The position numbers were made by a program, and so were the translations under genes. Positions 8,867 through 41,986 of a stretch of DNA of 64,000 nt are shown piece after piece. A model generated the notes under the pieces. The model did no database searches. It was not told the DNA's origin and worked only from the letters and a program-made list of their open reading frames with translations. The stretch's first letter is position 1; the number at the start of each line of letters is the position of its first letter. This DNA is from Amyelois transitella (lineage: Eukaryota > Arthropoda > Insecta > Lepidoptera > Pyralidae), in NCBI RefSeq assembly GCF_032362555.1, contig NC_083525.1:7921501-7985500 (forward strand). The letters run 5' to 3'.

Positions 8867-14125
<5,259 letters not shown>

Positions 14126-20464: not shown

Positions 20465-23400
20465 ATGGCGGGAAAGGCTGCTTTGGTCTTCTTGCTCGCC
20501 TTGATTGGTGTCTCGGTAAGTTTCTTTTGTAGTTTTTTTTTTAAATAAAAAGGTCCAATAACCATTATCCAACCTGGATGTCTATGGTAATGTTCCAGCT
20601 TAAAATGGCTTCCATGCGGTAAAAAAAAATTGTGTGCCAGCTGTTTCTGTTCCCGTCGTCTGTAAAAGTCTATCAAGGGAAAGGTTGATTCTTCTTTTAG
20701 GCGATAGCAACCTGTCACTATTTGAATCTATACTATATGTAATCTATACTAATATAATAAATCTGAAGAGTTTGTTTGTTTGTTTGTGCGCGCTAATCTC
20801 AGAAACTACTGGTTCGAATTGAAAACTTCTTTTTGCGTTGAATATACCATTTATCGAAGAAGGCTTTAGGCTATATAACATCTTGCTGCAACTCTAAGGA
20901 GCAAAGAAATAATAGAAAATGTGAAAACAACGGGGAAAATTATACATCCTTGAACGCTTCAATAATGCCCAAAATAACTATTCCACGCGGATGAAGTAGC
21001 GGGCACAGCTAGTTAAGAATAGAATAGAATATAATAGGACCGCTGACCTTTGTGATTCTACTTGCATACTATTGTAGCGGGTATTAGGTTAAGTTTAAAA
21101 TTTGTATAATAATTAATATGTAAAGATTTTTATTATTTGTAAATTATATCGTATTTAAGTTTCTGCTGAGTCCGGCCCCTAGAATACGGTCCTGTCTCTT
21201 AATAGAATACCTAGCGCCTGGCAATTTGAAATCGCGGAGTCTTCTATGAATTTCGTTGCGTTTTAGTTCGATAGTTTTTTGTTTCCTTTCACATTTTTTC
21301 CATCATTTATTTTTTATGTTAGTGTATTGTATAAATAACATCCAATATACATATATTTATTTTGTAAATAGTATTTTTCTTTACATAATTCGCAAGTTGC
21401 TATACTATATGTAATTAAGGTATTTCTTCATGTTGATTTACCAACTCTTGTCTTAGGCTGACCCTGGGGTCCACCTTAGCTCTGCCAAAAAGGATCGAGC
21501 TCGGAATGATGAAATGTATTTAGATATTTAAACGGCGTAGTTTATGTGCCGTGTGGTTCCCGGCACAAATAAAAAAAAGAATAGGACCACTCCATCTCGT
21601 CATCGTCCATCTCATCCCATGGATGTCGTAAAAGGCGACTAAGGGATAGGCTAATAAACTTGGGATTCTTTTTTTAGGCGATGGGCTAGCAACCTGTCAC
21701 TGTTTGAATCTAAATTCCATCATAAAGCCAAACAGCTGAACGTGGCCATTCAGTCTTTTCAAGACTGTTGGCTCTGCCTACCCCGCAAGGGATATAGACG
21801 TGATTATATGTATGTATGTAGTATTCCAATAATTTTGGCCACATCATCCTTCGTCCATTATTCCTGGTTGCGTCCTCACCTCGCTTGAGAGGACTTCGCA
21901 GTAGACATGTATGCCACAATTCTGAACTGTTTACTCAGGTATATTTTGCAGGATAACCTAACCCATTTTCAAACAGGGTTATAACATCCAGTTGCCTGTA
22001 TTTAAAACTGTGTGTTGGTAAAAATAAAGAAAAACTTTAATAAAAAACTTAATACATAAAAATATCCTAACTTCAATTCGTCTTAAATAATTGTTGTGAA
22101 ATTTAACAAAAGAAGAACATCATTTTTCATTTTAATTTTTTTTTTATTTTTCTTAGCGGCCAGTGCGCTATACAACTTTAAACAGCCTGAATGTGTACGG
22201 TTCCTCACGATAATTTCCGACTTCATAAAAGCATCGGTTAGTCAATCAGACATAGTTCTTCTTGGCTACTCTTCATCCTCTCTCGATGAAATTCTCGTCT
22301 TTTTGGAGACGAGCCCAGGGTGCGCATTTTGACTATAATCTAGATTGGAAGTCAACGACTACAAAATAATATAATTTCTTACTCCAAATCTAGTTTCTTG
22401 ATAGGTGTGGGATCTTCTGTGGCGCAGCGGTAATACGCTTGTCTGTGACACCGGAGGTCCCGGGTTCGAATCCCGGCCAGGGCATAATGAGAAAATAACT
22501 TTTTCTGATTGGTCTAGGTTTTGGATATTTATCTATATAAGTATTTATTATAAAATAAAGTATCGTTGAGTTAGTATCTCGTAACACAAGTCTCGAACTT
22601 ACTTCGAGGCTAACTCAATCTGTGTAATTTGTCCCGTATATATTTATATATTTGTCCCGTATATATTAGTGTTCGAGTTTACAAACAAATTGTATATAAA
22701 CTCTTGAACGATCGCTTTCAGGTGTCGGCTGAATCCCTGTTATCATTCCCAGAGGATGCGAGAAGTGGTAAGTGATATTTTGTTCACATCTATACTAATA
22801 TTATAAAGCTGAAGAGTCAGTTTGTTTATTTTGAACGCGCTAATCTCAGAAACTACTGGTTCTAATTGAAAAATTATTTTTGCGTTGAATAGACCATTTA
22901 TCGAGGAAGGCTTTATCTATGTTGTTGATATTATAAAGCTGAAGAGTTTGTTTGTTTGTTTGAACGCGCTAATCTCAGGTAAGTAGTACTGGTTCAAATG
23001 GAAAAATTCTTTTTGTGTTGAGTAAACCATTTATCGAGGAAGGCTTTATTTATGTTGTTGATATTATAAAGTTGAAGAGTTTGTTTGTTTGTTTGAACGC
23101 GCTAATCTCAGGAAGTACTGGTTCAAATTGAAACACTATTTTTGTGTTGAATAGACCATTTATCGAGGAAGACTTTACGCTATATAACATGACGCTGCAA
23201 CTATTAGGAGCAAAGAAATAATGGAAAATGTGAAAAAATTATCGCGGAAAATTATTCATCCTTGAAAAATTATTTTAGGGTTTGCTTCTAATTCTTTCTT
23301 GCCCTCTTCATTGTCTTTTTGTAAATTTATATTTTATTCAGGTCTAATAGAAATTAATGGAATTTAAAATTAGCCTTTTTGTATTAATAATTAGGCCGGT

Positions 23401-26400
23401 ATCTTATCATGCAATGTTTTAATCTTGTCAAATACTTACATGCGCTTAAGATATTAACACTTATGATACTTATATTTTACGATATATGTATTTATGACAT
23501 TTCTCGTTGTAAAATGAGAATGATGTTTTTTTAAAATATCATGGTCTCACGCTGGACGCTATAGCTGATTAGCTGCTCAAATCTTCTATTTATGTTTTCC
23601 AATTCTTCTATTGTGTCATGTGGTTCCCGGCAGCAAACGAAAAAAGAATAGAACCACTCCATCTTTTTCAAATGAATGTCGTAAAAGGCGACTAAGATGT
23701 AGGCATGTAAACTTGAGATTCTTCTATTAGGCGATGGGCTACCAACCTGTCACTATTTGAATTTCAATTTAACATTAAGGCCGTAATAGTTGAACGTGTC
23801 CTATTGGTCATTTCGAGACTGTTGGCTCTGTCTACCCCGCAAGGGATATAGACGTGATTATAAGTATGTATGTAATTCTTCTATCTTGAAGATCACCGAA
23901 TATTCTTCTTTAAAAAAAAATAAAAATAAACAAAAGATTCTTCTTCCCCTTCTTCCCCAGGTGCCCGTATAGTCTCAGGATGGGAGGCGGAAGAGGGTCA
24001 GTTCCCGTTTCAGCTGTCACTGCGCATGGTAAACCCCGCAGGGGGGGTCACGGCTTGCGGCGCCTCCATAGTTCATCCTGAATGGGCCATCACAGCGGCA
24101 CATTGTACTGCTACGTAAGTCTACATGCATATAGTCACGTCTATATCCCTTGCGGGGTAGACAGAGCCAACGGTCTTGATGGGCCACGTTCAGATGTTGT
24201 TTTGGGTTAGTGATAGAATTAAGATTCTAATAGTGACAGGTTGCTAGCTCATGGCCTAAAAGAAGAATCTCAACATACATACATAAATGATCACGTCTAT
24301 ATCCGTAGCGGGGTAGACAGAGCCACCAGTCTTGAAAAGACTGATAGGCCACGCTCAGCTGTTTGGCTTAGTGATAGAATTGAGATTGAATCGAATCTCA
24401 ATATACAAGCAAATCCCTCTTAGTCGCCTTTTACGACATCCATGGGAAAGAAATGGAGTAGTACTATTCTTTTGTCTATTGGTGCCGGGAATCACACGGC
24501 CCATATTTTGATTTTTATGATCTATATTCTTTTTTGTGAACTCAATTGCTGTGACCTGTAGATACTTAATTTGCATCAAACCTTGTCTGTTTGTCCTTAA
24601 CAGTCGTATCTCGGTGATCGTCCGCGCAGGCGCCGTCAACCTAACCAGGCCGTACTATATCTTCGAGACTACTGAGTATTACAATCACCCCCTTTACAAC
24701 GAAGCCCTGCAGGGCTTGGTTCAGCCTAATGATATCGGGGTCGTCAGATTTAACAGACAACTCGTTTTTAATGGTAAGTTGAATTGGTGTTGTGCCGTGC
24801 GGTTCCAAAAAAGAATAGGACCACTCCGTCTCTTTCCCATGGATGTCGTAAAAGGCGACTAAGGGATAGGCTTATAAAATTGCGTTCATTTTTTTTTGGC
24901 GATGGGCTAGCAACCTGTCACTATTTGGATCACAATTCCATCATTAAGCCGAGCAGCTGAATGTGGCCGTTCAGTCTTTTCGAGACTTTTGGCTCTGTCT
25001 ATCCCGTAGGGGATATAGACGTGACTATATGTTGAATTGGTCTTTTTTAACTTATGTTGTGAGAATTTGTTTGTTTAACCGCGGTTTATTTCATAAGAAT
25101 AGGTACAACTAATATTAATTAATTAATTAATAATAATAAAAAAACTATTCTAAATTACATACATACAGTCACGTCTATATCCTTTGCGGGGTAGACAGAG
25201 CCAACAGTCTTGAAAAGACGGATAGGCCACGTTCAGCTTTTTGGCTTGATCATCGAATTGGGATACAAATAGTGACAGGTTGCTAGCCCATCGCCTAATA
25301 GAAGAATCCCAAAAGTAGTTTATATGTTATTCTGGATCTTCAGCTACCTACATAACAAATTTCATCGTAATCGGTTCAGTAGTTTTTGCGTGAAAGAGTA
25401 ACAAACATCCATACTACTAGACATACTCACAAACCTTTACATCTATACTAATATTATAAAGCTGAAGAGTTTGTTTGTTTGTTTGATTGTTTGTTTGTTT
25501 GAACGCGCTAATCTCAGCAACTATTGGTTCGAATTGAAAAATTATTTTTGCGTTAAATAGACCATTTATCGAGTAAGGCTTCAGGCTATATAACATCACG
25601 CTGCAATTTTTAGGAGCGAAGAAATAATGGAAAATGTGACAAAAACGGGGAAAATATTCATCCTTGAGGGCTTCAATGATGCCCAAAATAACTATTCCAC
25701 GCGGACGAAGTTGCGGGCACAGCTAGTTTATAATATTAAGTAGGATAAAATAGTAATGTATCTTTTGCAATTTCAGATAGAGTCGCGCCAATCAGAGTGC
25801 AGCGTTCGGATGACAGGAACCGGAACTACGCCGGCCTCAGGCTCACTGCTAGTGGATGGGGGCTCACCTGGACTCAGGGTAAGCCTTCGAGAAATGTATA
25901 TCGCGGTCCTATTTTAACTTGAGCAACGCGACAAGGATAGCTTTATGTTTCTGGTCGATTGAAGTTTTGTCTTGTTTTCGACATTTGGTTCTTTAGTTTG
26001 ATATTGGAAGGCAGCTGCTGGATCTGACTGACTGACTTTCCCACCCTGGTTCCTAGTAAGTAAGTAAATGCTTTATTGTTCACTAAAGGAGTACTTTACA
26101 AATATTAAACAGTAGTACAGTGCAAAGGCGGGCTTATCCCTAAGTGGGATCTCTTCCAGCCAACCTGACTATAAGAGGATCGCACACATAATTGACGCAA
26201 GGGTGAACAACAGTTCATACATATAAAATATATAAACATGTGCCGTGTGGTTCCCGGCACCAATACAAAAAACAATAGGACCACTCCATCTTTTTCCCAT
26301 GGATGTCGATAAAGGCGACTAAGGGATAGGCTTATAAACTTGGGATTCTTTTTTAGGCGATGGGCTGGCAACCTGTCACTATTTGAATCTCAATTCTATC

Positions 26401-29400
26401 ATTAAGCCAAATAGCTGAACTTGGCCATTCAGTCTATTCGCGACTGTTGGCTCTGTCTACCCCGCAAGGGATATAGACGTGACCATATGTATGTATGTAT
26501 GTATAAACATGTATGTATACTAAAATAAATTAAGAACCAATTCAAGACTTGAGAAAGAATTTATTAAGATTATTTTTAATGAATAAGAAGAAGTGGACAA
26601 TTTTATATAAAGAGGCAGTTTATTCATAAGGCGTGCAGCCAACTCGGAAAATGACTTACCGTTAGTCAAGTAAGTAGTGGTAGGCATGCCTTGGACTGTT
26701 CTGCTAAGACGTTACAATCGGGGCAAATGTTAAGAAGATCATAAACATACTCGTATCTAACTTCGAAATTTTTCTTCAGGCAGTTCACCAGAAAACCTTA
26801 ACTGGGTGTACCTGAGTGGCACCAGCAATCCTGAATGCTCTTCAGCATTCGGCGGCAGCTCCATCATCCAGGATTCCACGATTTGCGCCAGAGGGTACAA
26901 CTTGACCACTCAGTCTACTTGTTCCGTAAGTATAAAGATAAAACACTTTATTGCACTGTTTATTTTTTTATTTATTTATTTATTTACATAGATACATAAT
27001 ACATTATATTATTCCGCAAGGGATATAGACGTGACCATATGTATGAATGTATGTATGTACAAACATATATTCACGTCTATATCCCTTGTGGGGTAGACAG
27101 TGCCAACAGTCTTGAAAAGACTGATAGGCCACGTTCAGCTTTTGGCTTGATGATAGAATTGAGATTCAAATAGTGACAGGTTGCTAGCCCATCGCCTAAA
27201 AGAAGAATCCCAAGTTTATAAGCCTACCCCTTAGTCGCCTTTTACGACATCCATGGAAACGAATCCATCTCTTTCCCACGGATGTTGTAAAATGCGACTA
27301 AGGGATAGGCTTACAAACTTGGGATTCCTTTTTAGGCGATATATAGCGACGTCTGTATTCCGCAAGGGATACAGACGTGGCTATATGTATGTATGTAGAT
27401 AGATAGATATATAAACACTTTATTGTACCATAAGAGTAGACATACAAAAATACCGTGAGAATATTTATGGTCGTATTTTCATAAAAACTTTTTTGGGTAC
27501 TTAATCCCTTTTGCGTTTGGTAATACCCGTGGGAAGAAAAAATACGCGCTGGCATAAAGCATCACACCTGATCGCGTCCTCCCGTCTCTGGAGAGGAAAA
27601 CCAAACTATGTAGATACCTAACTACATACATACATACATAAAATCACGTCTCTTTCCCGGAGGGGTAGGTAGAGACTACCTCTTTCCACTTGCCACGATC
27701 TCTGCATACTTCCTTCGCTTCATCCACATTCATAACTCTCTTCATGCAAGCTCGGCGGTTTCGGGTACTTTTGACCTGACCCTTCACCAGGACGTCCTTA
27801 ATTTGATCAAGATACGTTCGTCTAGGTCTTCCTACTCCGACCTTTCCCTCCACACTCTCCTTGTATATCTGCTTAGTCAACCTGCTTTCATTCATCCTCT
27901 CCACATGACCGAACCATCTTAACATACCCTTTTCTATTACATACATACATACATACATACGGTCACGGCTATATCCCTTGCGGGGTAGACAGAGCCATAG
28001 TCTTGAAAATACTGAATGGCCACGTTCAGCTATTTGGCTTAATGATAGAATTGAGATTCAAATAGTGACAGGTTGCTAGCCCATCGCCTAAAAGAAGAAT
28101 ACCAAGTTTTTAAGCCCATCCCTTAGTCGCCTTTTACGACATCCACGGGAAAGAGATGGAGTGGTCCTATTCTTTTTTGTATTGGCGCCCGGAACCACAC
28201 GGCACCCTTTTCTATTCCTGTAACTAACATAATGTTTTATGCGCAGGGTGACAGCGGCGGTCCACTCACCGTGATCGATGAGGACGGCCAGCCTACCCTG
28301 GTGGGGGTAGCTTCCTTCGTGTCAGCTGCTGGGTGCCACGCCGATTTCCCAGCTGGTAAAGAAACAATAACATCATAATCCTACACCCTAAGTGGTGAAG
28401 TGGTATCTGACAACAAATTAAAGGCAAAAGCTTTCAAACTAGGAATTCTCTTTTAATCGATAGGCTAGGAACTTGTCGCTATCTGAATCTCAAAATAATT
28501 ACATCACAAAACCATGCAGCTGAACCTTAGCCTTTTTAAGTAAGAAAGAAGAAGTTATTGCCTCCGTATATGTGTGTACTATTCGGATTTCCGCGACTCA
28601 ATGAGATTGGAGGTGATAACCATTAGCTAATAAATTGTATTAAAAAGTTATTTTATTAAGTTCTAAATTTGTTTCAGGTTTCATCCGCCCTGGTCACTAC
28701 CAAGATTGGTTTTTACAAGTGACAGGCATAGATTTTGATTGGGATTACGAAGAGCCAACTACGCCACAGCCGGAACCGGAACCTGAGCCAGAACCAGAAC
28801 CAGAACCAGAACCGGAACCGGAACCTGAACCTGAGCCAGAACCAGAACCGGAACCGGAGCCTGAGCCTGAGCCAGAACCCGAGCCAGAACCCGAGCCAGA
28901 ACCTGAACCAGAACCTGAGCCAGAACCAGAGCCGGAACCGGAACCGGAACCTGAGCCAGAACCAGAGCCAGAACCAGAACCGGAACCTGAACCAGAACCT
29001 GAGCCAGAACCAGAACCTGAGCCAGAACCAGAGCCTGAACCAGAACCGGAACCTGAGCCAGAACCAGAACCTGAGCCAGAACCCGAACCCGAACCCGAAC
29101 CCGAACCCGAACCCGAACCCGAACCCGAACCCGAACCCGAACCCGAACCCGAACCCGAACCCGAACCCGAACCCGAACCCGAACCCGAACCCGAACCCGA
29201 ACCCGAACCCGAACCCGAACCCGAACCCGAACCCGAACCCGAACCCGAACCCGAACCCGAACCCGAACCCGAACCCGAACCCGAACCTGAGCCTGAGCCT
29301 GAGCCAGAACCCGAACCAGAAACAGAAGAAAGTGGTGAGAGTTCTGAAACTAATGAAAGTGATGATAGCTCCGAATCTGAAAGTTCCGAATCACAGAATG

Positions 29401-29495
29401 CTGAAAGTTCGCAATCGGAAAATTCCGAATCCAATGAATCGGAACAAGCAGCAAAATATAATAGTTTGAAATCAAACAGGATTCGAGCTTTTTGA
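20465..29495 (+). CDS. Chymotrypsin-like secreted serine protease 1 with (Pro-Glu)92 tail
   Basis: Exons: 20465-20515, 22722-22767, 23961-24114, 24604-24773, 25777-25878, 26780-26925, 28247-28355, 28678-29495; 531 residues. Residues 1-20 are a signal peptide ([20 protein letters not shown]), followed by a short propeptide with activation at Arg35-Ile36 (IVSGW). The S1 triad is complete: His80 (TAAHC), Asp127 (NDIGVV) and Ser226 (GDSGGP). The residue at the base of the specificity pocket, six before the active Ser, is Ser220, which predicts chymotrypsin-like rather than trypsin-like cleavage. Six cysteines fit the usual three disulfides. After the domain ([10 protein letters not shown]) come 92 Pro-Glu dipeptides and a Ser/Glu-rich acidic tail ending IRAF. 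The enzyme should be extracellular (gut, haemolymph or silk; the sequence does not say which). It is a tandem paralogue of the gene at 33444. AATAAA at 29718-29723 is a possible poly(A) signal. Confidence 0.92.
20628..20730 (+). mobile_element. RTE-tailed SINE, internal fragment
   Basis: Matches include TTCTTCTTTTAGGCGATAGC and AACCTGTCACTATTTGAATC. It is cut off by the Helitron-like element that follows. Confidence 0.6.
20743..21012 (+). mobile_element. Helitron-like nonautonomous element, full length
   Basis: It begins TCTATACTAATATAATAAAT and ends GCGGGCACAGCTAG, with a short GC hairpin (CGCG...AGT/CGCG) before CTAG. It has no terminal inverted repeats. These are Helitron hallmarks. Confidence 0.75.
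21546..21820 (+). mobile_element. RTE-tailed SINE, full length
   Basis: Intact head GTGCCGTGTGGTTCCCGGCAC and intact end GACGTGATTATATGTATGTA. A short duplication of CTCGTCATCGTCCATCT sits after the ACCACTCCATCT block. Confidence 0.9.
22412..22650 (+). mobile_element. tRNA-derived SINE, full length
   Basis: A box TGGCGCAGCGG and B box GGTTCGAATCC are intact. The tail TTTGTCCCGTATATAT is partly duplicated. Confidence 0.85.
22790..23277 (+). mobile_element. Helitron-like element with internally triplicated 5' segment
   Basis: The 5' part (from ATATTATAAAGCTGAAGAG through ATCGAGGAAGGCTTTAT) is present three times in a row, at about 22800, 22925 and 23050, with a period near 125 bp. The third copy continues into the family's body and stops before the CTAG end. 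Confidence 0.75.
23612..23874 (+). mobile_element. RTE-tailed SINE with target-site duplication
   Basis: Head GTGTCATGTGGTTCCCGGCA, end AAGGGATATAGACGTGATTA. AATTCTTCTAT flanks it at 23600-23610 and 23874-23884. Confidence 0.9.
24125..24503 (-). mobile_element. Two RTE-tailed SINEs in series, one truncated
   Basis: A tail-side piece at 24125-24272 ends abruptly where a second, almost complete copy (24273-24503) begins with ACATACATACATAAATGATC. This suggests one copy inserted in or beside the other. Both lie in protease 1 intron 3. Confidence 0.8.
24789..25030 (+). mobile_element. RTE-tailed SINE with target-site duplication beside exon 4
   Basis: The 11-bp GTTGAATTGGT occurs at 24778-24788 and 25031-25041. 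The upstream copy starts five bases after the exon 4 boundary, so the insertion spared the GTAAG donor. The head lacks the CCGGCAC half. Confidence 0.9.
25155..25312 (-). mobile_element. RTE-tailed SINE, 5'-truncated
   Basis: Runs from CATACATACAGTCACGTCTA to GCCTAATAGAAGAATCCCAA, then stops; the head half is missing. Confidence 0.8.
25330..25422 (-). mobile_element. Second Helitron-like family, fragment
   Basis: ATCTTCAGCTACCTACATA, AATCGGTTCAGTAGTTTTTG and CGTGAAAGAGTAACAAACAT match, in reverse, the element at 48299-48503. Confidence 0.65.
25442..25726 (+). mobile_element. Helitron-like nonautonomous element, full length
   Basis: Starts TCTATACTAATATTATAAAG after an A and ends GCGGGCACAGCTAG before a T, the A/T target expected for Helitrons. 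It is one of the best-preserved copies in the window. Confidence 0.8.
26060..26215 (-). mobile_element. Probable LINE 3'-end repeat
   Basis: GTAAATGCTTTATTGTTCAC, then GGCGGGCTTATCCCTAAGTG, looks like a reversed AATAAA-containing LINE 3' UTR of a type common in moths. Class assignment is from memory and weak. Confidence 0.4.
26242..26501 (+). mobile_element. RTE-tailed SINE with target-site duplication
   Basis: TATAAACATGT flanks the element at 26231-26241 and 26502-26512. Head and (ATGT)n tail are complete. Confidence 0.9.
27010..27400. mobile_element. Rearranged RTE-tailed SINE pieces in inverted order
   Basis: A plus-strand tail piece (27010-27055) is followed by a minus-strand copy truncated at GACATCCATGG (27060-27258). 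A plus-strand copy with a deleted middle follows (27262-27400). Together they could fold back over ~70 bp. Confidence 0.7.
27612..28228 (-). mobile_element. RTE-like LINE 3' fragment split by a SINE
   Basis: LINE sequence runs from the tail at 27625 to ACCCTTTTCTATT at 27926-27938. It resumes at 28204 with the same 13 bp and continues CCTGTAACTA, as in the uninterrupted LINE at ~30930-30950. The repeated 13 bp are the SINE's target-site duplication. The resumed LINE ends about 20 bp before the exon 7 acceptor of protease 1. Confidence 0.85.
27939..28203 (-). mobile_element. RTE-tailed SINE nested in the LINE fragment
   Basis: A complete copy from (CATA)n to GGAACCACACGGC, bounded by the 13-bp duplication of LINE sequence. 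The nesting shows SINE activity after the LINE had inserted. Confidence 0.9.
28770..29321 (+). repeat. Hexanucleotide array encoding (Pro-Glu)92
   Basis: 552 bp in one frame read as 92 uninterrupted Pro-Glu dipeptides. The flanks mix CCG/CCA/CCT with GAA/GAG. The block 29082-29285 is 34 identical CCCGAA units, pointing to recent slippage or unequal exchange. None of the six frames of the pure block has a stop. Confidence 0.95.
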
Positions 29496-29579
29496 TCAGT
29501 AGTAACATATATGTTTTCAAACTTATACCTAAATGAATTTAACGAAATGTAAAATTAAATATCTAATATATAGGTACGT

Positions 29580-29675: not shown

Positions 29676-29807
29676 AAATAAATAACACTTACATAATTAT
29701 ATTAAACAATTTTTCGAAATAAACTTGTTTTATTCTCATTCGTGTTAGAATGAATGTATACGCCAATGCCAATGATTTGCTGTAAACTATGTTAAAACAG
29801 ATATACA

Positions 29808-30622: not shown

Positions 30623-33261
30623 ACATACATACATACATACATAAAATCACGCCTCTTTCCCGGAGGGGTAGGCAGAGACTACCTCTTTCCACTTGCCACG
30701 ATCTCTGCATACTTCTTTCGCTTCGTCCACATTCATAACTCTCTTCATACAAGCTCGGCGGTTTCGGGTACTTTTGACCTGACCCTTTACCAGGACGTCC
30801 TTAATTTGATCAAGATACGTTCGTCTAGGTCTTCCCACTCCGACCTTTCCCTCCACACTCTCCTTGTATATCTGCTTAGTCAACCTGCTTTCATTCATCC
30901 TCTCCACATGACCGAACCATCTTAACATACCCTTTTCTATTCCTGTAACTACATCTTCTTTCACATCACAACATTCCCTTATCACGCTGTTCCTTATCCT
31001 GTCACTCAATTTCACACCCATCATACTCCTTAACGCTCTCATTTCCACTGCATTTATTCTGCTTTCATGCTTCTTTTGCCATACCCAACTTTCACTCCCA
31101 TACATTAATGTCGGGACCAACACGCCCCTGTGCACAGCCAGTCGAGCCTTTTTGGATAGTTTCTGACTGCTCATAAAGGCATGCAAAGCTCCATTCACCA
31201 TGTTCCCCGCGTTCACTCTCCTTTCAATATCACTATCATACTTGCCATCTGATGTAAACTTTGATCCTAGATATACAAACTCTTTCACTTGCTCCACTTT
31301 TTCTCCTCCAATCAAAATATTACATGCTGTCATTTCTTTCTCCATTTCAAAACCAGTGTTTTAGTTTTACTTACGTTCACTTTCATTCCTTTCTCTTTTA
31401 AAGCTTCATGCATACAGTTTACCATCTCCTGTAACTCCTCCGCTGATGACGCCAGTATAACCTGATCGTCGGCATAGAGCAGACATTTGACGAGTAACTC
31501 ATTCATCCTTAATCCACTTTTAGACTCTTTCAAATCTGTCAAACAGCTATCCATAAATAGGTTGAACAGCCACGGTGACGCAACACATCCTTGCCTAACG
31601 CCTTTCTCAATCTTAAACCACTCAGTGTGCGCTCCGTTTATCCTGACACAAGCACTCGAATCCTCATATAAGGATTTCAGTGCTCGTATTAAGAGACTGC
31701 TCACCCCATGCATAGAAAGTGCTGACCACAATTCATTCCTCTCAACTCTGTCATAGGCCTTTTCCAGATCTACGAATGTGCAATAGACTTTTTGACTCTT
31801 GGCCAAAAACTTTTCGGCTATGCACCGCAAGGAAAAGACCTGATCAGTACATCCCATTCCCTTTCGAAATCCCGCTTGAGCATCCCATATTTTGTCATCA
31901 GTTTCATTCCTGACTCTATTAATCAATACCTTAGCATACAATTTGCCGACGACGCTAAGCAGGCTTATACCACGATAATTTTTGCAGTCCAGCTGTGACC
32001 CTTTTCCTTTGTAAAGTGGCACGATAACAGCCTTACACCAATCTTTTGGTACTCGGCCGCTTCTCCAACACAAATTGAAAAGGCAGTACAACTGACTAGC
32101 TACTACGCCTTTTCCTGCTTTAAGCATCTCGACCGACACTCTATCACACCCAGCAGCCTTTCCCGCTTTCATACTCTTAAGTGCTTCCACAATTTCGAAC
32201 ATTTCAATTTCGCCTTCCATCTCATTCTCTTTTTCTTCGCTATAGCAGAAATCTTTCTTATTTCCTTCCTTTTTTTCAAATAAACTTTCAAAATAGTCCT
32301 TCCATATCTTTAGTACACATTCTTCTCCTTTCACAACGCTACCATCCTGGCATCTGATCCTAGTCAGCTCTCTGGTTATAGTATTTCCTCGGGCTGACCT
32401 TACGGATTTCCAGAATACTTTCAGATTTGACTGAAAGTCTTCTGATAGCCTTTTATCAAAATCCTCTTTATACTCTTCTTTCTTTCTAATCACAGCTTTC
32501 TTAACCAAATCTTTAATTTTCTTATATTCCTTACGTGCTTCATTCACATCTTCATCTATAACCTCTTGCATTCTTAAGTTAGCTTTTGCTGCTAACAAAT
32601 CCAGCCATGCTTTCTTCTTTAATCGCACAAGTTCTTGCACATCTTTACTCATCCACGCATTTTTGTGATTTTTTCCTTTCCTTCTTCTACTTACACCACA
32701 CACTTCAACAGCTACTTTCACAATTCTTTCTTTAAATTCCTTCCATCCATCTTCAATATCGCTCATTTCCTCTAAATCTTCAAATTCATCCTTCAGTCTA
32801 TTAATATACTTCTTACCTACATCCATATCTTGCAAATTTTCTACTTTTACTCTTTCCAAAGCGCTGGTTTGCTCCCTTACCCTGTGCCGCCAGCGATTGA
32901 AGATACCCCTTATCCGGGATATCACCAGTAAATGGTCCGAGTCAATGCCAGCACCGCGATATGCACGGGTATCCAGCACTTTGTTCTTCAATCTTTCATC
33001 TACAATCACAAAGTCTATCATACTTTTTAAAATACCTTCCACTCTTGTGTAGGTGTGGATCTCTTTATGTTGAAACATTGAGTTCGACACAAAAAGATCC
33101 CACTCTAGACAAATTTCTAATACACTTCTTCCATTATCATTCACCTTTTCGTCACCAAACGCACCAAGCACCTTTTCATATCCATCACGCTTTACACCCA
33201 CCCATCCATTAAAATCACCTAACATAATAATCTTCTCATTTGGCTTGGTAACTTTCAATTT
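30623..33261 (-). pseudogene. RTE-like LINE, 5'-truncated, endonuclease-RT frame broken once
   Basis: Longest copy of the family. On the minus strand an EN-RT frame starts in the endonuclease (MLGDFNGWVG; catalytic SDH in GIDSDHLLV). It continues through the RT (AGCDRVSVEML, YRGISLLS, AQAGFRKG, GVRQGCVASPWLFNLFMD, catalytic CLLYADDQVI). A one-base frameshift near 31340 moves the rest ([40 protein letters not shown]) to another frame, which ends YPSGKEA-TGA. The stop is about four bases before the (ATGT)n tail, so there is almost no 3' UTR. AGTTACAACTT at 30612-30622 and 33262-33272 looks like the target-site duplication. The N-terminal endonuclease is missing. It inserted between the two proteases, antisense to them, about 180 bp before the start codon of the second. 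Confidence 0.9.
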
Positions 33262-33379
33262 AGTTACAACTTGATCGTAGAAAAGCCGGTTACCAAATTA
33301 ATGAATGATCTATTTCTGATAAGACGTTACAAATTGATAGCAAATCTGATTAACAATCTTAATCTGTTAGAAAAAACCC

Positions 33380-33430
33380 TGATATTAAGTATATTTAGAG
33401 TGTTAATTAAATTTATTAATTATTAGTGTA
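33380..33430 (+). promoter_or_regulatory. Candidate promoter of protease 2
   Basis: A TATA-like AGTATATTTAGA at ~33388-33399 precedes ATTAGTGT by about 30 bp, and the start codon is near 33444. The remaining 5' flank before the LINE is only ~180 bp. Confidence 0.35.
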
Positions 33431-33443
33431 GTGTTATTCCATC

Positions 33444-36400
33444 ATGATAGGTCACACGAGCTTCGTTTTCCTTCTGACTTTGTCCGTGACTACGGTAAGT
33501 AAACTTGCATACATACATACATACTAGCTGTGCCCGCGACTTCGTCCGCGTGGAATAGTTATTTTGGGCATCATATTTATTTTTGCAAACATCCTCTTCG
33601 GCTTTATCAATTATAGCTGCTAATTGTTATGCGACTTGACGACGACTTGGCCCACATCATTACCCGCGACGGAACGGAGACCGTATAGTGAGATGAGAGG
33701 CCTTTGCCCAGTAGTGGGATCAGGCATTACAGGCTGATACTTTACTTTACTTTAAAATAGTAATATCTTCTAAGATGTTCATTGAAATTAAGTGATATCA
33801 AAGACAGTTGTGTTTACAATTAAATACTCATAATCAACAACAATCTTAAAAGATAGACATAATCAGTTTAAAAGTAGGTAAGAGGTAAAAACAGACAAAC
33901 ATACAAAGGAAGTATTATAAGTAGAATGATACCTATCTATATGTAGGAAGTAGGATAGAGCAGGGCGATCGAAAGATGCGGGGTGAGGTCAGGCGGTCAC
34001 GCGTATTAGAAAGAACGCTGGTTCGCCGTATTAAATGTTTCGCTGCAAATTGCTTATAACGACTATATCTCAAAACCTATTCGTCTGATTTATATACTGT
34101 AAATGGCAATTTTAGTCTACATGAAAAGCCGAAAGTAATAAACATATTTATTTGGATAAGGATTAATACTGAATTAAAGAAAATTGGTTTCAAAATAACT
34201 TATGTTTATAATGAAAAAATAATCTTAAAAAATGAACATAAAAGTGGTTATTGTAAGTAAACCTTAAGAGATAGATATATGCTCTCGCGGACTTTTTTGT
34301 GGCAAAAAATGAGTACTTCACATCTTTAGTACATTGTTTTACTATATCTTTGTTGGTTTGCGCAGCGTTCGCGTGGAAAGCTCGCAGATGGCCGACTCAT
34401 TCAACTTTCACCTGCATTGTTGACGTTTCCCGTAGGAAATCCGGGATAATAGATAGATAGCCTATAGCCTTCCTCGATAAATAGACTATCTAACAGTGAA
34501 AGAATTATTCAAATCGGTTCAGTAGTTTCTGAGATTAGCGCGTTTAAACAAACAAACAAACAAACAAAACAAACTCTTCAGCTTTATAATATTAATATTA
34601 ATTATTAATATACATACATATGGTCACGTCTTTATCCCTTGCGGGGTAGACAGAGCCAACAGTCTTGAAAAGACTGAATGGCCACGTTCAGCTATTTAGC
34701 TTAATGATAGAATTGAGATTCAAATAGTGACAGGTTGCCAACCCGTCGCCTAAAAAGAATCTTAAGTTTGTAAGCCTATCTCTTAGTCGCCTTTTACGAC
34801 ATCCATGGGTAATTGATGGAGTGGTCCTATTCTTTTTTGTATTGGTGCCGGGAACCACACGGCAAAAAGTTTACAAAGAGGTAGGTACATCCAACTCTTC
34901 CGTTACTGAATGACAGACGATGAACAGTTAAAGCCGTTTCGCAAAATTTATGTTAGTATTGTGATCTTGCAATATATGTATGTATATTGACGGACGAACG
35001 CTTTGATAGTGAAGAGCGTCAGTGGTCGAATCAGTGAGTTGCCCGGTTTAAATGCGTATGCGCATAAAGGCACAAGTCTGAATCCCACTTCGGCCTTGTA
35101 CATATACATACATCCATTCATATAGTCACGTCTATATCCCTTGCGGAGTAGACAGGGACAACAGTCCTGAAGAGAGTGACAGGCCATGTTCACTTCGGCC
35201 GTGTACAATGACTATTTTCGAAGTTATCCAAATTTAAATACTAACCGATGCTCTTACGGTGAGGGAAAACATCGTGAGGAAACCCGTACATTCTGGCAAC
35301 TGGATGTGTAACCATGATCGATCCGATACGGGTTAGGTTTACCTGCAAAGATTGGGGAGGTTAGATGGGAGTCGCTTCGTGTAAACAACTAACTCATCCA
35401 ATCCAGGATCCATGGTCAAAGGCATACCCCGGGCTTCTCTTCAGAGTGGTGAGGATGCAACCGGGACTACAGCCAGGAGGAAGAAAAACGCTTTAACCAA
35501 TAGTTTAAAAGGTCTACAAAGGTTGCGGATGTCAAATGGGAGTCGCTTCGTGTAAACAACTAACTCATCCAATCCAGGATCCATGGTCAAAGGCATACCC
35601 CGGGCTCCTCTTCAGAGTGGTGAGGATGCAACCGGGACTACAGCCAGGAGGAAGAATAACGCTTTAATACTGACGCCATCTGTATAGATGAATAGAATAG
35701 AATAGATTTATTTTCAAAATTGGATACGAGGTATCACTTATTGACGTCACATCACTAAGGGATAATCTTAATATTAATCTGAAAAACATAAGAACTGAAG
35801 TCATATATACATGTAACGTCTTTATCCTTTGAGGGGTAGACAGAGCCAACAGCCAATTTACTATGACTTTATTTTCAGGTTTTGGCTGACCCTCTTCTGG
35901 CATTTCCCGAAGAGGCAAGAAATGGTAACGTATTTATATAAGCTTTATTAATATACCCCGGTTTCGGGTTCTGTCTACCTTACAGGGTAGACAGAGCCAA
36001 CACCAACAGTCTCGCTAAGACTTAAATGCGACGTTCAGCTGTATGGCTTAATGATGCAATTGAGTTTCAAATAATGACAGGTCGCCTCTTTTCCGGAAGG
36101 GGTAGGTAGAGACTACATCTTTCCACTTGCCAAGAAAGCGATGAATGTGTGAATTAGGAATGCATGGATTGATGAGTGACACATATTGAGTTAGCCTCGA
36201 AGTAAGTCCGAGACTTGTGTTACGAGATACTTACTCAACGATACTATATTTTATAATAAATACTTATATAGATAAACATCCAAAACCCAGGCCGATCAGA
36301 AAAAGTTCTATTCTCATCATGCCCTGGCCGGGATTCGAACCCGGGACCTCTGGTGTCACATACAAGCGAACTACCGCTGCGCCACAGAGCCCGTCAAAAT

Positions 36401-39400
36401 ATAGTACCTAAATAAAGGAACAGACAGCTACTTAACCTTAATAAAATAAAAATAGGTAATAAACGTGTAAAGTTTCTCCAGAAATAAGTTTTGCGTATCT
36501 AATCATCCAATAATCCACGTAAAACACGCGAGATTAAAGTATTAAAACTTAATGAGATATTGATCTGACAGGATGTGACTAACGCAGTGTATAGCTACTG
36601 ATAAATCAGTATTATCTTTATTTGATAAAAAATAATTACCAGTGTCGTTTCCGACGAAAGAAATGGATGTCGTGAAAGGCGACTAAGGGATAGGCTTACA
36701 AACTTGGGATTCCTTTTTAGGCGATGGGCTAGCAACCTGTCGCTATTTGAATCTCAATTGTAGATTATTAATTATCTTTATATGGCCATTCAGTCTTTTC
36801 AAGACTGTTGGCTCTTTCTACCCCCAAGGGATATGTATGTCGATTAACAATGGTGTATGTGGAGCACGCGCGAGAGACGATCTTGAGAGAGAGAGACAGC
36901 TATCTTGTACTTCAAACCTTAAAAACTTTGTAAAAAATTATTCGATTCCTAATTTTTCCATCGTCATTAAAAAAAATTTACAAAAATTTTCTTTTCAAAT
37001 TTCAACTTTGTCCCCAGGCGCCCGTATCGTTTCTGGATGGGAAGCCGAAGAGGGCCAGTTCCCGTTTCAGCTGTCCCTGAGAATGGTGAACCGGGAGGGG
37101 GGAGTGACTGCATGCGGCGGTTCCATCATTCATGCCGAGTGGGCCATCACAGCTGCTCATTGTACTGCCACGTAAGACCTTCATCATGATGATGGTACCT
37201 GTGCAGTAATCATGATTCCAGATGGATATTATAGCCGCTTGTTTATTGGATAGAAGACTAAAGGATAGGCTTATTAACTTTGGATTCTTCTTTTAGGCGA
37301 TGGGCTAGCAACCTGTCACTATTTGAATCTCAATTCTATCATAAAGCTGACAGCTGAACGTGGTCAATTAGTCTTTTCAAGATTGTTGGGTCTGTCTACC
37401 CCGCAAGGGATATAGACGTGATTTTATGTATGTATGTTTATTAGATGGTGTAGAGGGTTGGTATTCAATGGTACAAGGCATCCTGATATTATAGACAAGC
37501 AAACAAAAATTCTCATCAACTTCTGTTCAGTGTCTTGTGGTTCCCAGTACTGATACAAAAAAGAATAGGACCACTCTATCTCTTTCCCGTGGATGTCGTA
37601 AAAGGCGAACAAGGGATATGCTTATAAATTTGGGATTCTTTTGAATGCCAATTCTAAACAGCTGAACGTGGCCTAGGTATCAGTCTTTTCAAGATTGTTG
37701 ACTCTGTCTACCCCGCAATTGATAAAGACGTGACTTTATGTATGTATGTATATAAATTCAAATTCAAACTTTTATTTGCATAATATGAGTACAACAAGGT
37801 CTTAAATTTATATGTATACCAGATCTTCATATTTACCCTTTCGGATGTTGCAAAGCATTTATTATGTATTATTAGACATACATACATACATATGATCACG
37901 TCTTTATCCCTTACGGGGTAGACAGAGCCAACAGTCTTCAAAAGACTGATAGGCCACGTTCAGCTGTTTGGCTTAGTGATAGAATTGAGATTCAAATAGT
38001 GACGGGTTGCTAGCCCATCGCCTAAAACAAGAATCCCAAGTTTATAAGCCTATCCCTTAGTCGCCTTTTACGCCATCCATGGGAACGAGATGGAGTGGAC
38101 CTATTCTTTTTTTTATTGGTGCCGGGAACCACACGGCACTATTATTAGACATACAAACTTATACATAAAGTATAAGTTTGTATGTATTGTTTGTAAGTAT
38201 TTCTGTTACTTCCACAGTCGCGTCTCAGTCGTGGTCCGCGCCGGCGCAGTCAACCTCACACGGCCGTACTACATCTTTGAGACTACAGAATATTACAACC
38301 ACCCTCTTTATATTGAAGCCCTTCAGGGTATAGTCCAGCCGAACGATATTGGTGTCGTTAAGTTCAACAGAAGAATTGAGTTTAATGGTAAGTTCATCAG
38401 TTCAATGACGGCCTCTGTGGCGCAGCGGCAGTACGCTTGTCTGTGACACCGGAGGTCCCGGGTTCGAATCCCGGCCAGGACGTGATGAGAAAATTACTTT
38501 TTCTGATTGGCCTGGGTCTTGGATGTTTATCTATATAAGTATTTGTTATAAAATATAGTATCATTGAGTTAGTATCTCGTAGCACAAGTTTCGAACTTAC
38601 TTGGAGGCTAACTCAATCCGTGTAATTTGTCCCGTATATATTTATTTATTTTTATTTATTGTTGTATTCTGTAGAATAGAATAGATTTATTTTCAAAATT
38701 GGATACAAGGTAGATATCACTTATTGACGTCACATAACTTAAATCTAATTATAACTTCTACAGTTCAATATAAATAAAATGTCATCGTAATTATTTAAAT
38801 TATGGCAATATTTAAAACCTTCACGGCAGCTTAAAAGACCTAAATAATATACGAGTAAGGGTCATAGTCAGAAAGTCAGATTGTCTACTCCTAGCCTTGA
38901 GGTGTTAAGGAGACATATACCCCGGTTTTTTTTCATCTATACTAATACGAGTATTATCTATACTAATATTATAAAGCTGAAGAGTTTGTTTGTTTGAACG
39001 CGCTAATCTTAGGAACTACTGATTCGAATTCAAAAATTATTTTTGTGTTGAATAGACCATTTATCGTGGAAGGCTTGGAAGGCTATATAACATCACGCTG
39101 CAACTATTAGGAGCAAAGAAATAATTAAATATGTAAAAAAAAAAAAACGGGAAAAAATTATTCATCCTTGAGGGCTTCAATGATGCCCAAAATAACTATT
39201 CCACGCGGACGAAGTCGCGGCCACAGCTAGTGAGTAATGAAAAGCTGAGCATCTTCACCTTTAGATTGTCAGATTATAGCCAAATATTATTATTTATACA
39301 GCGCGGGAATGCTGCCTGCGTGATGAGAACCCTTCCTAGGGGTCAAAATTTAAACAATAATGATTTTAGCTTGTAATTTAGAATAGTTTTTCTTTTTTAT

Positions 39401-41986
39401 TATTATAAAATAATTAATATTAGTTTAAATATATTTAATTAGGTATATTTATTATTAGTACTTTGCCAAATATTAATATGATTACAGACAGAGTGCAGCC
39501 AATCAGGCTTCACCGTTCGGAAGACAGGAACCGGAACTACGATGGCGTCCGGCTGACTGCCAGCGGTTGGGGCCGAACCTGGACCAACGGTAAGCAATTG
39601 TTGCATATATCCTTTTAAAAAATATATAATCAGTAATGGGTAGAGTGCCGTGTGGTTCCCGGCACCAATACAAAAAAGAATAGGACACTAGGGTGACTAA
39701 GGGGTAGGCTTATAAACTTGGGATTCTTATTTTAGGCGATGGGCTAGCAACTTGTCACTATTTGAATCTCAATTCAATCTTAAAGCCAAATAGTTGAACG
39801 TGGCCTATCAGTCTTTTCAAGGCTGTTGGCTAAGTTGTATACATATGGTATAAGTAGCCGTATGTTTTCTCAAAATTCCATCGGGAACAAAAGTTTGTTA
39901 TCCTATTATATATTTGTTTCCGCTGGAATTTTAAGATTCAACATTAGAAAAATTTTGGCTTTTCCTGTCATAATCCAAAGGTCGACTAAACCGGTCAATA
40001 AGATCATGAATCATTTATTTGCTTAAATAACATTTTAGTTATTCATTTATATATATATATATATATATATATATCAAAGCTAATTATTACACAAGTTTTA
40101 AAAACAAATCTCATTGTTACCAGGAGCATCCCCCGAGAACCTTAACTGGGTATACCTGAGAGGTGTCACCAACGCGGCCTGCTTGGCAGCCTTCGGAGGC
40201 GGCTCCATCATCCAGCCTTCCACCATCTGTGCCAGGGGATATAACGATACTACGCAGTCTATTTGTCAAGTGGGTAAAAAGTAAAAAGTAACAAACAAAA
40301 TACATACATAATTACGTCTATATCCCTTGCGGGGAAGACAGAGCCAACTGTCTGAAAAAGACTGATTAAAACTAAATTATACATACATATATCACGTTTT
40401 TACCCCCTCACGGCGTAGACAGAACCAACATTGTCGAAAAGTAGTAAAGTAATGATAGAATTGGGATTCATATAGTGACAGGTTGCTAGCCCGTCGCCTT
40501 AAAGAAGAATCCCAAGTTAACAAGCCCTACAGCTGAACATGCCCTTTCAGTCTTTTCAAAACTGTTGCCTCTATTAATTATATGTTATGCCTATTTGCCA
40601 TGCCTGTCGGATACTCTTGACCTGACATATATATGACGTATAGACGTGATTATATGAATGAGAGTGCCTGTGATCAGCTCAACTCATGACTTGATATTTC
40701 TTTTTCAGGGTGACAGCGGTGGTCCTTTGACTGTGGTTGATGAAGATGGAGTGCTGTCTCTAGTTGGAGTCTCATCCTTCGTCTCCGGAACAGGTTGCCA
40801 CACGGACTTCCCAGCTGGTAAGCATGCATGAAAGCCTTTTCAAGGTAGGCAAAGGCTGACGGCCTCTATGGCGCAGCGGTAGTATAATTGTCTGTGCCAC
40901 CGGTGTCCCGGGTTCGAATGCTGGCCAAAAAAAGAATCTTCTGATTGGCTTGGGCTTGGATGATTATTTTTTTAAGTATTTAATGTAAAATGTGTAATAG
41001 AGGCTTACTCAATATGTGTAATTTGTCCTGTATATACATATTTCATTTAATTTTATTTTAATATAGACGTGACTATATGTATGTATGTAATACACTAATA
41101 ATACTCTTTATGTTTAGGTTTTATTCGCCCGGGACATTACCACGATTGGTACTTAGAAGTCACGGGAATCGACTTCGATTGGGAAGAATATGAAGTGTCT
41201 ACTACTACCACTACTACACCATTGCCAGATACAACCATTTATCCGGGTCCAAACACCACCTATACTGTACCAGATACTACCTTATATCCGGGACCAAACA
41301 ATACTACACCGGCACCAAACACCACCTATACTGTACCAGATACTACCTTATATCCGGGACCAAACAATACTACACCGGCACCAAACACCACCTATACTGT
41401 ACCAGATACTACCTTATATCCGGGACCAAACAATACTACACCGGCACCAAACACCACCTATACTGTACCAGATACTACTTTATATCCGGGACCAAACAAT
41501 ACTACACCGGCACCAAACACCACCTATACTGTACCAGATACTACCTTATATCCGGGACCAAACAGTACTACACCGGCACCAAATACCACCTATACTATAC
41601 CAGATACTACTTTATATCCGGGACCAAACAATACTACACCGGCACCAAACACCACGTATACTGTACCAGATACAACTTTATATCCGGGACCAAACAATAC
41701 TACACCGGCACCAAACACCACGTATACTGTACCAGATACTACTTTATATCCGGGACCAAACAATACTACACCGGCACCAAACACCACGTATACTGTACCA
41801 GATACAACTTTATATCCGGGACCAAACGCAACATACCCAGAAATTGGTAGTACCGTATACCCAGTACCAAATACCACTTATGCAGTACCAGATACAACAA
41901 TAATTGACTCAGTTCCGGAAACTAAAATGAACGACGATGATGAAACAATTCTGAAATGGTTCAAATCGAAATTACTGTTTTTCTAA
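33444..41986 (+). CDS. Chymotrypsin-like secreted serine protease 2 with Thr/Pro/Asn repeat tail
   Basis: Exons: 33444-33494, 35879-35924, 37018-37171, 38218-38387, 39488-39589, 40124-40269, 40709-40817, 41118-41986; 548 residues. The first seven exons have the same lengths (51, 46, 154, 170, 102, 146, 109) as those of the paralogue at 20465, so residue numbers coincide: signal peptide ~1-20, activation at Arg35-Ile36, triad His80, Asp127 and Ser226 (CQGDSGGP), pocket Ser220. The protease domain ends GIDFDWEEYEV. The tail is unrelated to the paralogue's: a Thr run, then eight 22-residue units (NTTPAPNTTYT...) with partial units on each side. Nearly every unit carries two Asn-X-Thr sequons, which predicts a heavily glycosylated, mucin-like stalk. 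The last residues are charged then hydrophobic (KWFKSKLLFF). AATAAA at 42078-42083 is a likely poly(A) signal. Substrate and tissue are unknown. Confidence 0.92.
33524..33577 (-). mobile_element. Helitron-like 3'-end fragment
   Basis: CTAGCTGTGCCCGCGACTTC, then CGCGTGGAATAG: the CTAG terminus with its hairpin, read on the minus strand. The rest is deleted. Confidence 0.75.
33640..33750 (+). mobile_element. LINE 3'-end repeat (GGCCTTTGCCCAGTAGTGGGA type)
   Basis: GAGAGGCCTTTGCCCAGTAG, then GGCTGATAC, a block I recall as a common lepidopteran LINE/SINE 3' terminus. Only one copy lies in this window. Confidence 0.5.
34445..34605 (-). mobile_element. Helitron-like element, diverged 5' half
   Basis: On the minus strand ATATTATAAAGCTGAAGAG, then GCGCTAATCTCAGAAACTAC; on the plus strand the sequence ends in CTCTTCAGCTTTATAATATT. 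The TTGAATAATTC block differs from other copies. Confidence 0.65.
34612..34865 (-). mobile_element. RTE-tailed SINE, full length
   Basis: From TACATACATATGGTCACGTC to GGGAACCACACGGCA, near-consensus throughout; protease 2 intron 1. Confidence 0.9.
34990..35340 (+). repeat. Unnamed interspersed repeat with a SINE fragment inserted
   Basis: GACGGACGAACGCTTTGATA, AAGGCACAAGTCTGAATCCC and CATCGTGAGGAAACC are blocks I associate with lepidopteran interspersed repeats. A minus-strand RTE-tailed SINE piece lies at 35105-35200, and CACTTCGGCC is repeated on each side of it (35090 and 35191). Confidence 0.5.
35345..35668. repeat. 171-bp tandem duplication
   Basis: The segment from ATGGGAGTCGCTTCGTGTAA through CAGCCAGGAGGAAGAA to ACGCTTTAA occurs at ~35365-35500 and again 171 bp later (~35536-35668), with only a few differences. 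Confidence 0.85.
35690..35785 (-). mobile_element. LINE 3'-UTR repeat (GAATAGAATAGATTTATTTT type)
   Basis: The same block, followed by GGATACGAGGTATCACTTAT and TGACGTCACATCACT, recurs at 38670 and, reversed, at 52240-52420. On the minus strand it carries AATAAA near a TTCTATTCTATTC tail. Confidence 0.6.
35800..36080 (-). mobile_element. RTE-tailed SINE fragments around exon 2 of protease 2
   Basis: Tail-side fragments at 35805-35860 (ending 18 bp before the exon 2 acceptor) and 35960-36080 flank exon 2 on both sides. Confidence 0.65.
36085..36150 (-). mobile_element. RTE-like LINE, 3'-end scrap
   Basis: TCTTTTCCGGAAGGGGTAGG and CTACATCTTTCCACTTGCCA are joined directly to a SINE fragment without an intervening tail. 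Confidence 0.6.
36183..36393 (-). mobile_element. tRNA-derived SINE, full length
   Basis: Reversed B box GGATTCGAACC and reversed A box CCGCTGCGCCA are intact. It is the only minus-strand copy of this SINE in the window. Confidence 0.85.
36655..36840 (+). mobile_element. RTE-tailed SINE, 5'-truncated
   Basis: Starts at ATGGATGTCGTGAAAGGCGA, has a short insertion near TTGTAGATTATTAATTATC, and ends AAGGGATATGTATGT. Confidence 0.8.
37245..37750 (+). mobile_element. Two RTE-tailed SINEs in direct order
   Basis: First copy 37250-37440 lacks the head; second copy 37531-37750 has the head TGTGGTTCCCAGTACTGATA but an internal deletion after GGGATTCTTTTGAA. Both end in ATGTATGTAT. Confidence 0.8.
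37875..38139 (-). mobile_element. RTE-tailed SINE, full length
   Basis: From ACATACATACATATGATCAC to GGGAACCACACGGCAC. The short flank ATTATTAGACATAC is repeated at 37866-37879 and ~38140-38153, a probable target-site duplication. Confidence 0.9.
38409..38655 (+). mobile_element. tRNA-derived SINE, full length
   Basis: Starts 20 bp after the exon 4 donor of protease 2. A and B boxes are intact and the tail is TTTATTTATTTTTATTTATT. Confidence 0.85.
38670..38740 (-). mobile_element. LINE 3'-UTR repeat (GAATAGAATAGA type)
   Basis: TTTATTTTCAAAATTGGATA, then AAGGTAGATATCACTTATTG and ACGTCACATAAC; the second direct copy of the block at 35690. Confidence 0.6.
38957..39230 (+). mobile_element. Helitron-like nonautonomous element, full length
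   Basis: TCTATACTAATATTATAAAG to CCACAGCTAG. A partial second 5' terminus (CATCTATACTAATACGAG) lies immediately upstream at 38934-38956. Confidence 0.8.
39645..39835 (+). mobile_element. RTE-tailed SINE, 3'-truncated
   Basis: Complete head GTGCCGTGTGGTTCCCGGCAC, a deletion across GATGTCGTAAAAGG, and an end at AGGCTGTTGGCTA with no (ATGT)n tail. Confidence 0.8.
40049..40074. repeat. (TA)n microsatellite
   Basis: Thirteen uninterrupted TA units in protease 2 intron 5. Confidence 0.9.
40300..40660. mobile_element. Broken RTE-tailed SINE pieces
   Basis: Minus-strand scraps at 40300-40370 and 40380-40525 and plus-strand scraps at 40525-40580 and 40630-40660 fill the intron before exon 7. No full copy is present. 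Confidence 0.6.
40859..41046 (+). mobile_element. tRNA-derived SINE, degenerate
   Basis: A box TGGCGCAGCGG kept; B box GGTTCGAATGC has one change; most of the 3' body is deleted. Confidence 0.75.
41234..41893 (+). repeat. 66-bp minisatellite encoding the protease 2 tail
   Basis: Eight full 66-bp units plus partial units at both ends. Each unit encodes 22 residues. Units differ by a few silent changes (ACCTTATAT/ACTTTATAT, ACCTAT/ACGTAT) and rare replacements (Asn to Ser, Val to Ile), so the array is young and kept in frame. Confidence 0.95.

Follow-up and report, generated by a model that had tools for sequence, protein, structure and literature searches.

Tandem moth S1A protease genes with a common catalytic core and different repeat-rich C-terminal tails

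When tandem duplicates share a protease core but end in sharply different disordered tails, the questions are how such tails arise, how old they are, and what they might do for the enzymes that carry them. The case discussed here lies in a 64,000-nucleotide stretch of Amyelois transitella DNA (the window), and positions given without a contig name are positions in that window. From open reading frames on both strands of positions 18000-46000 and inspection of the DNA, two tandem plus-strand genes were modelled, gene 1 at 20465-29495 and gene 2 at 33444-41986. Each gene has eight exons, all 14 introns (seven per gene) follow the GT...AG rule, and joining the exons at GT/AG yields proteins of 531 aa for gene 1 and 548 aa for gene 2.

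Gene structure and catalytic core

20465..20515, plus strand: gene 1 exon 1, with the start codon and an N terminus resembling a signal peptide (by eye), a GT donor, and the 51 nt also seen in gene 2
22722..22767, plus strand: gene 1 exon 2, propeptide
23961..24114, plus strand: gene 1 exon 3, activation site R/IVSG and catalytic His80
24604..24773, plus strand: gene 1 exon 4, catalytic Asp127
25777..25878, plus strand: gene 1 exon 5
26780..26925, plus strand: gene 1 exon 6
28247..28355, plus strand: gene 1 exon 7, catalytic Ser226 (GDSGGP)
28678..29495, plus strand: gene 1 exon 8, last catalytic segment and entire tail
33444..33494, plus strand: gene 2 exon 1, signal-peptide-like N terminus
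35879..35924, plus strand: gene 2 exon 2, propeptide
37018..37171, plus strand: gene 2 exon 3, activation site and His80
38218..38387, plus strand: gene 2 exon 4, Asp127
39488..39589, plus strand: gene 2 exon 5
40124..40269, plus strand: gene 2 exon 6
40709..40817, plus strand: gene 2 exon 7, Ser226
41118..41986, plus strand: gene 2 exon 8, last catalytic segment and entire tail

An earlier note on this DNA had claimed that seven consecutive exons are equal in length between the paralogues, that the catalytic triad falls at the same residue numbers, and that the sequence at the join, GIDFDW, is conserved. The spliced models agree on every point: exons 1-7 measure 51, 46, 154, 170, 102, 146, and 109 nt in both genes (7/7), the triad is H80/D127/S226 in both proteins, and GIDFDW begins at residue 276 in both. 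The equal exon lengths are unsurprising, since they are expected from duplicates with a constrained core free of indels. Past the stop codons, an ATTAAA lies 88 nt downstream in gene 2, and ATTAAA or AATAAA occurs 59, 182, 206, and 223 nt downstream in gene 1.

The two cores are identical at 220 of 281 residues. Trypsin is the sole Pfam family detected in both (1.1e-42 and 2.1e-44 for genes 1 and 2, or 146.7 and 152.4 bits against a cut-off of 20.6), and the triad contexts that mark S1A (trypsin/chymotrypsin) enzymes, TAAHC, DIxx, and GDSGGP, are present in each protein. Behind a signal peptide judged by eye come the zymogen activation sites SGAR/IVSG and NGAR/IVSG (the slash marks the cut). 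With these sites and full triads, genes 1 and 2 read as intact zymogens.

Kinship within S1A was judged from the single best match, which does not by itself define a subgroup, in a solved-structure search that had gene 2 as its only query. Hypoderma lineatum collagenase (1HYL) came out on top at 3.4e-38 and 135 bits, and the next of the best 60 of 543 matches scored 101.4 bits. This collagenase is like genes 1 and 2 in its catalytic domain, in the Ser that stands six residues ahead of the catalytic Ser (QSxCxGDSGGP), and in its TGI(K/D)F ending; unlike them, its solved chain has no tail. Because that chain terminates at TGIKF, aligned to TGIDF of gene 2, each tail starts just beyond the normal C-terminus. 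We take the Ser that stands six residues ahead of the catalytic one to be position 189, at the base of the S1 pocket, so the enzymes are presumably not trypsins. Both presumably resemble the azurocidin-like group of moth proteases. In the excerpts available of the papers cited here by PMC number, a Helicoverpa azurocidin-like proteinase occurs in brush-border vesicle pull-downs (PMC6283627, PMC4985599) and "Azurocidine" is one digestive S1 subgroup in Spodoptera (PMC5613006), and the excerpt of a Helicoverpa midgut expression paper mentions none of azurocidin, brachyurin, or collagenase (PMC13398162). A search of plasmid proteins returned only distant proteases, with all 161 matches below 60% identity (best 5 of 161 considered).

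The Pro-Glu and Thr/Pro/Asn tails

Each tail contains a tandem array:

28773..29321, plus strand: hexanucleotide array of the gene 1 PE tail, 92 Pro-Glu with 34 identical CCCGAA units inside
41249..41827, plus strand: 66-nt tandem array of gene 2, 8.8 copies with 97% matches, encoding PNTTYTVPDTTLYPGPNNTTPA units

It is barely credible that the tails reflect an error of annotation or assembly and form no part of the translated protease. Exon 8 encodes the last conserved catalytic segment, no stop lies ahead of the tail, and the position and phase of the exon 8 acceptor are conserved with genes 3 and 4, two paralogues described below. The artefact explanation draws on the observation that four further frames, three of them on the minus strand, are open for at least 196 aa across the PE array, so that an open frame there is weak evidence by itself. 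Opposite the array runs a minus-strand Ser-Gly frame of 269 codons (28745-29554), which probably arises as a side effect of the hexamer and could mislead gene callers.

The tail of gene 1 is 250 residues long with a net charge of -106. Residues 291-474 of protein 1 are exactly 92 Pro-Glu dipeptides (184 residues) and are followed by a Ser/Glu-rich segment; the count of 92 dipeptides and an acidic Ser/Glu segment made in the earlier note was exact. The longest run without K/R/F/Y/W/L/M extends for 235 residues. Across the 92 units Pro is encoded by CCC 37 times, CCA 27 times, CCT 17 times, and CCG 11 times, and Glu by GAA 73 times and GAG 19 times, so its third position is A or G only. All eight possible silent unit types are found. 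The third codon position differs from the commonest codon 74 times, whereas the 368 first and second positions are invariant. This would be overwhelming for independent repeats; as repeats of an array are related, the independent changes were counted conservatively, from four (column changes) to seven (unit types); for that number of events and a transition bias of 1 to 4, the chance of an all-silent outcome in an unselected array is 0.006 to 0.00003. These changes are equally silent in the minus-strand Ser-Gly frame, and only the A/G restriction at the third position of Glu favors the plus strand. The pure block of 34 consecutive CCCGAA units is too young for any inference on selection.

The tail of gene 2 comprises 267 residues, including 77 Thr, 52 Pro, and 27 Asn. 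It had been described as a Thr/Pro/Asn repeat rich in N-glycosylation sequons, and a count bears this out with 26 N-x-S/T sequons, a number that falls to 19 when P is barred after S/T as well. The 66-nt array, as delimited by TRF, consists of eight complete units followed by a ninth whose end is divergent. Two amino-acid changes occur across the eight full units, V to I and N to S, with the sequons retained, and the tail sequence diverges in the ninth unit and beyond. There are 41 chymotrypsin-type sites in tail 2, and the longest site-free stretch is 15 residues; any resistance of this tail to proteolysis would therefore depend on its predicted glycosylation. Exon 8 of gene 2 matched no Pfam family, and a Pfam search of both cores and both last exons returned no binding or anchor domain. 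A GPI or membrane anchor was also considered by eye and found no support, as lysines lie within the only clearly hydrophobic end of tail 2.

Tail 1 turns basic after its acidic stretch, the last 15 residues carrying a charge of +4, and protein 2 ends in ILKWFKSKLLFF. Such ends would suit tails that are removed after secretion and serve only secretion, charge balance, or delivery of a short basic end. We consider this very improbable, given that the tail 2 end is no more amphipathic than its own shuffles (0.32) and that a role for the tail ends is conjectural.

Paralogues and the age of the tails

The core of gene 2 was compared with its own genome (327 Mb, 33 contigs) in a protein search that gave 41 exon-by-exon matches. 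After genes 1 and 2, the next-highest per-exon identities, up to 75% for the last exon of gene 3, belong to two minus-strand genes on the same contig, C21, which were modelled for exons 3-8 only. An intron-free protease on contig C13 owes its high score to length only and has 35% identity.

About C21:7904328-7908115, minus strand: gene 3 exons 3-8, roughly 13 kb before the window
About C21:8371654-8374679, minus strand: gene 4 exons 3-8, from the genome search

Core residues in common with gene 2 number 135 of 246 aligned for gene 3 and 133 of 250 aligned for gene 4, and the intron phases of both agree with those of genes 1 and 2. Their exon lengths are near those of genes 1 and 2 as well (151, 167, 108, 149, and 109 nt in gene 3; 156-157, 170, 102, 143, and 115 nt in gene 4). 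Both genes have tails. That of gene 3 is a 34-residue acidic stretch, and the 112 residues of gene 4 pass from Thr/Pro repeats through a Glu/Asp run to ELSELMKKLEVKVKVRVRLNKYGKKKEHKHKHKVTL. Each of the four modelled paralogues has its own kind of tail, from 34 to 268 residues long, and the position of tail and last catalytic segment in one exon indicates that the tail grew in place. A separate tail exon, or exon shuffling, is ruled out, because the two are co-exonic in all four modelled paralogues.

The gene 4 tail closes with LEVKVKVRVRL and KKKEHKHKHKVTL (about C21:8371654-8372054, minus strand). The alternating cationic LEVKVKVRVRL is strongly amphipathic as a strand (shuffle fraction 0.0008) and may form a putative polyanion- or metal-binding end. 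In Samia ricini, Sr II proteases are described with a cationic motif, ELLKRLEVKVKVKVK, embedded in a C-terminal extension; the lineage has orthologues in Bombyx and Helicoverpa, and Sr II is transcribed in the Samia larval gut (PMC10926435, in excerpt). The Sr II lineage is like the genes discussed here in joining a chymotrypsin/brachyurin-like S1A enzyme to a long C-terminal extension, and ELSELMKKLEVKVKVRVR of gene 4 closely matches the Sr II motif. Judged on the motif, the orthologue of Sr II is probably gene 4. Unlike that lineage, gene 1 has a PE rod as its tail and gene 2 a 22-residue Thr/Pro/Asn repeat, and a cationic motif of the Sr II kind is absent from proteins 1 and 2. From the Sr II extension and the gene 4 motif it follows that C-terminal extensions on this enzyme type were already known. 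Shortened tail queries gave a single weak match outside genes 1-4, to tail 2 (C23:7103775-7104065, 45% alike, E 6e-5), which is perhaps another Thr/Pro-rich gene; the absence of other tail matches is weak evidence, since searches of this kind may mask low-complexity tracts. With the tail 1 query, matches to genes 2 and 3 arose from the catalytic segment that it included.

Over codons 33-281, genes 1 and 2 differ by a Nei-Gojobori dN of 0.113 and dS of 1.6 (0.111 and 1.68 by YN00). A dS of about 1.6 is saturated, so the duplication is old. The repeat arrays are young. With 34 identical CCCGAA units in one gene and 66-nt units 97% alike in the other, the present arrays must long post-date the duplication. 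The earlier note had taken the tails for local repeat expansions that arose after or just before duplication; the expansions, joined in frame to the protease, stand, and the timing needs qualifying, the present arrays being far younger than the duplication. The same note had called the tails unrelated, a term that loses ground with tails on all four family members modelled. Tail-start homology was not significant in any comparison (0.063 for genes 1 and 2, 0.31 for 1 and 4, and 0.22 for 2 and 4, each as a fraction of 5000 shuffles). Because no homology was shown between the starts of tails 1 and 2, "unrelated" may hold in the strict sense. The comparison shows that the tails, going by their sequences, turn over much faster than the core.

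Such turnover bears on the explanation that the tails are mostly tolerated slippage products on a disordered C-terminus, neither of them with a specific job. Slippage accounts for the youth and variety of the tails, four for four paralogues. The pure (CCCGAA)34 and the near-identical 66-nt units are typical of fresh expansion, and homology of the tail starts was shown in none of three comparisons. This account is the main rival to the tether reading given below; we judge it less likely than not, though a serious contender. The older part of the PE array varies silently only, both tails hold frame through to a defined stop, and the cationic end of gene 4 nearly equals a motif reported, in the excerpts available, across several moths.

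Possible roles of the tails and the surrounding DNA

TsetseEP of Glossina is a midgut and peritrophic-matrix protein with a long C-terminal Glu-Pro repeat (PMC2832768, PMC3998921), a kind of repeat that its authors call very rare in databases (PMC2832768). The peritrophic matrix contains it, and Gram-negative bacteria are said to increase its level (PMC3998921). In the excerpts of these papers it is a secreted insect gut protein whose repeat differs in length among species. Among the genes described here only gene 1 has a C-terminal Glu-Pro repeat of this type, and its product would be secreted, to judge from the N terminus. The likeness ends there: TsetseEP is described with a lectin domain and not as a protease (PMC3998921), and gene 1, set against that description, lacks the lectin-bearing N-terminal region, Trypsin being the sole Pfam family in its core. 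A second parallel is EP procyclin of Trypanosoma brucei, with Glu-Pro dipeptide repeats that reportedly withstand the proteases of the tsetse midgut (PMC2637416, in excerpt). Exon 8 of gene 1 scores 70.9 bits against the Pfam procyclin profile (Trypan_PARP), short of the cut-off of 100, and we read this match as reflecting composition; unlike protein 1, procyclin is a GPI-anchored parasite coat protein.

Our best reading, tentative and a little under an even chance, is that genes 1 and 2 encode secreted gut proteases with resistant tethers. The products of the tandem pair would be secreted S1A enzymes, brachyurin/collagenase-like in kind and made as zymogens cut at R/IVSG, whose C-termini could lengthen within exon 8 directly past the final catalytic segment. 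Protein 1 would thereby bear a 184-residue polyanionic Pro-Glu rod and an acidic Ser/Glu segment, and protein 2 a Thr/Pro/Asn tail predicted to be N- and O-glycosylated. The tails could act as gut-resistant tethers that partition each enzyme differently in a lumen-side matrix (peritrophic matrix, mucus, or glycocalyx), the PE rod resisting gut proteases via its absence of cleavable side chains and the stalk via glycan shielding. The rise of polyproline-II is 0.31 nm per residue, and the rod, fully charged and extended, would be about 57 nm long if it adopts that conformation. The earlier note had suggested that the tails position the enzymes, for example in a peritrophic matrix, silk, or mineral-like matrix. 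Positioning is plausible by analogy with TsetseEP in the peritrophic matrix, and no pointer to a silk or mineral matrix was seen in this sequence analysis. If the tails do localise the enzymes, the pair would provide a clean natural test of stalk roles in the peritrophic matrix.

A different use would be in gut immunity, with TsetseEP-like tails acting on microbes or on matrix permeability. Reportedly, in work by Kang et al., an azurocidin-like protein is induced by bacteria in the Trichoplusia gut, which counts in favor of this use, as does TsetseEP itself, whose response to Gram-negative bacteria is accompanied by protection from trypanosomes (PMC2832768, PMC3998921). The lectin domain described for TsetseEP in place of a protease argues the other way (PMC3998921), and by RT-qPCR the Trichoplusia azurocidin transcript was not significantly changed on a bacterial diet (PMC2235825, in excerpt). 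On balance we regard an immune role as distinctly improbable.

Returning to resistant tethers, searches of openly licensed literature found no paper on Pro-Glu or PE repeats, so named, in insect serine proteases, nor on dipeptide repeats in serine proteases of Lepidoptera. A survey of Tenebrio serine peptidases describes C-terminal transmembrane regions on a few peptidases, and its excerpt makes no mention of mucin, low complexity, threonine-rich, or proline-rich (PMC11172050). Precedents exist for both halves, in the Sr II extensions and in the EP repeats of TsetseEP; their combination, a long EP tail on a protease, was absent from those searches. The EP repeat, called rare, reported to resist gut proteases in a parasite coat, and borne by a tsetse protein, is now tied to an actual protease. 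A wider generalization, which we think unlikely, would make long Glu-Pro repeats a recurring, independently evolved protease-proof module (fly TsetseEP, moth protease) and the C-terminus an evolvable address, with four tails for different gut-lining layers.

The surrounding DNA holds further frames and repeats:

31333-33297, minus strand: retrotransposon frame between genes 1 and 2, endonuclease/reverse transcriptase (RVT_1 3.6e-40; Exo_endo_phos_2 below cut-off)
30647-31360, minus strand: further retrotransposon frame
22798-23177: 133-bp tandem repeat, 2.9 copies, in gene 1 intron 2
24130-24420, 27060-27250, 27960-28200, and 37880-38140: example copies of the "ccttgcggggtagacagagccaacagtcttgaaaagac" element
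5011-7311, minus strand: SNF2-type helicase frame without interruption (5.4e-77), Rad54_N match falling just short of cut-off
13442-14128, minus strand: leucine-rich-repeat frame

On its gene 2 side the open retrotransposon frame extends to a point 147 bp ahead of the start codon of that gene, so the element may have altered the gene 2 promoter. A blastn comparison of the gene 1 and gene 2 regions returned the exons and many dispersed-repeat copies, largely between non-corresponding introns. The short element around "ccttgcggggtagacagagccaacagtcttgaaaagac" occurs in many copies and both orientations in the introns of the two genes and looks like a SINE- or MITE-type element, and copies related to the 133-bp repeat lie near 25440 and 38960.
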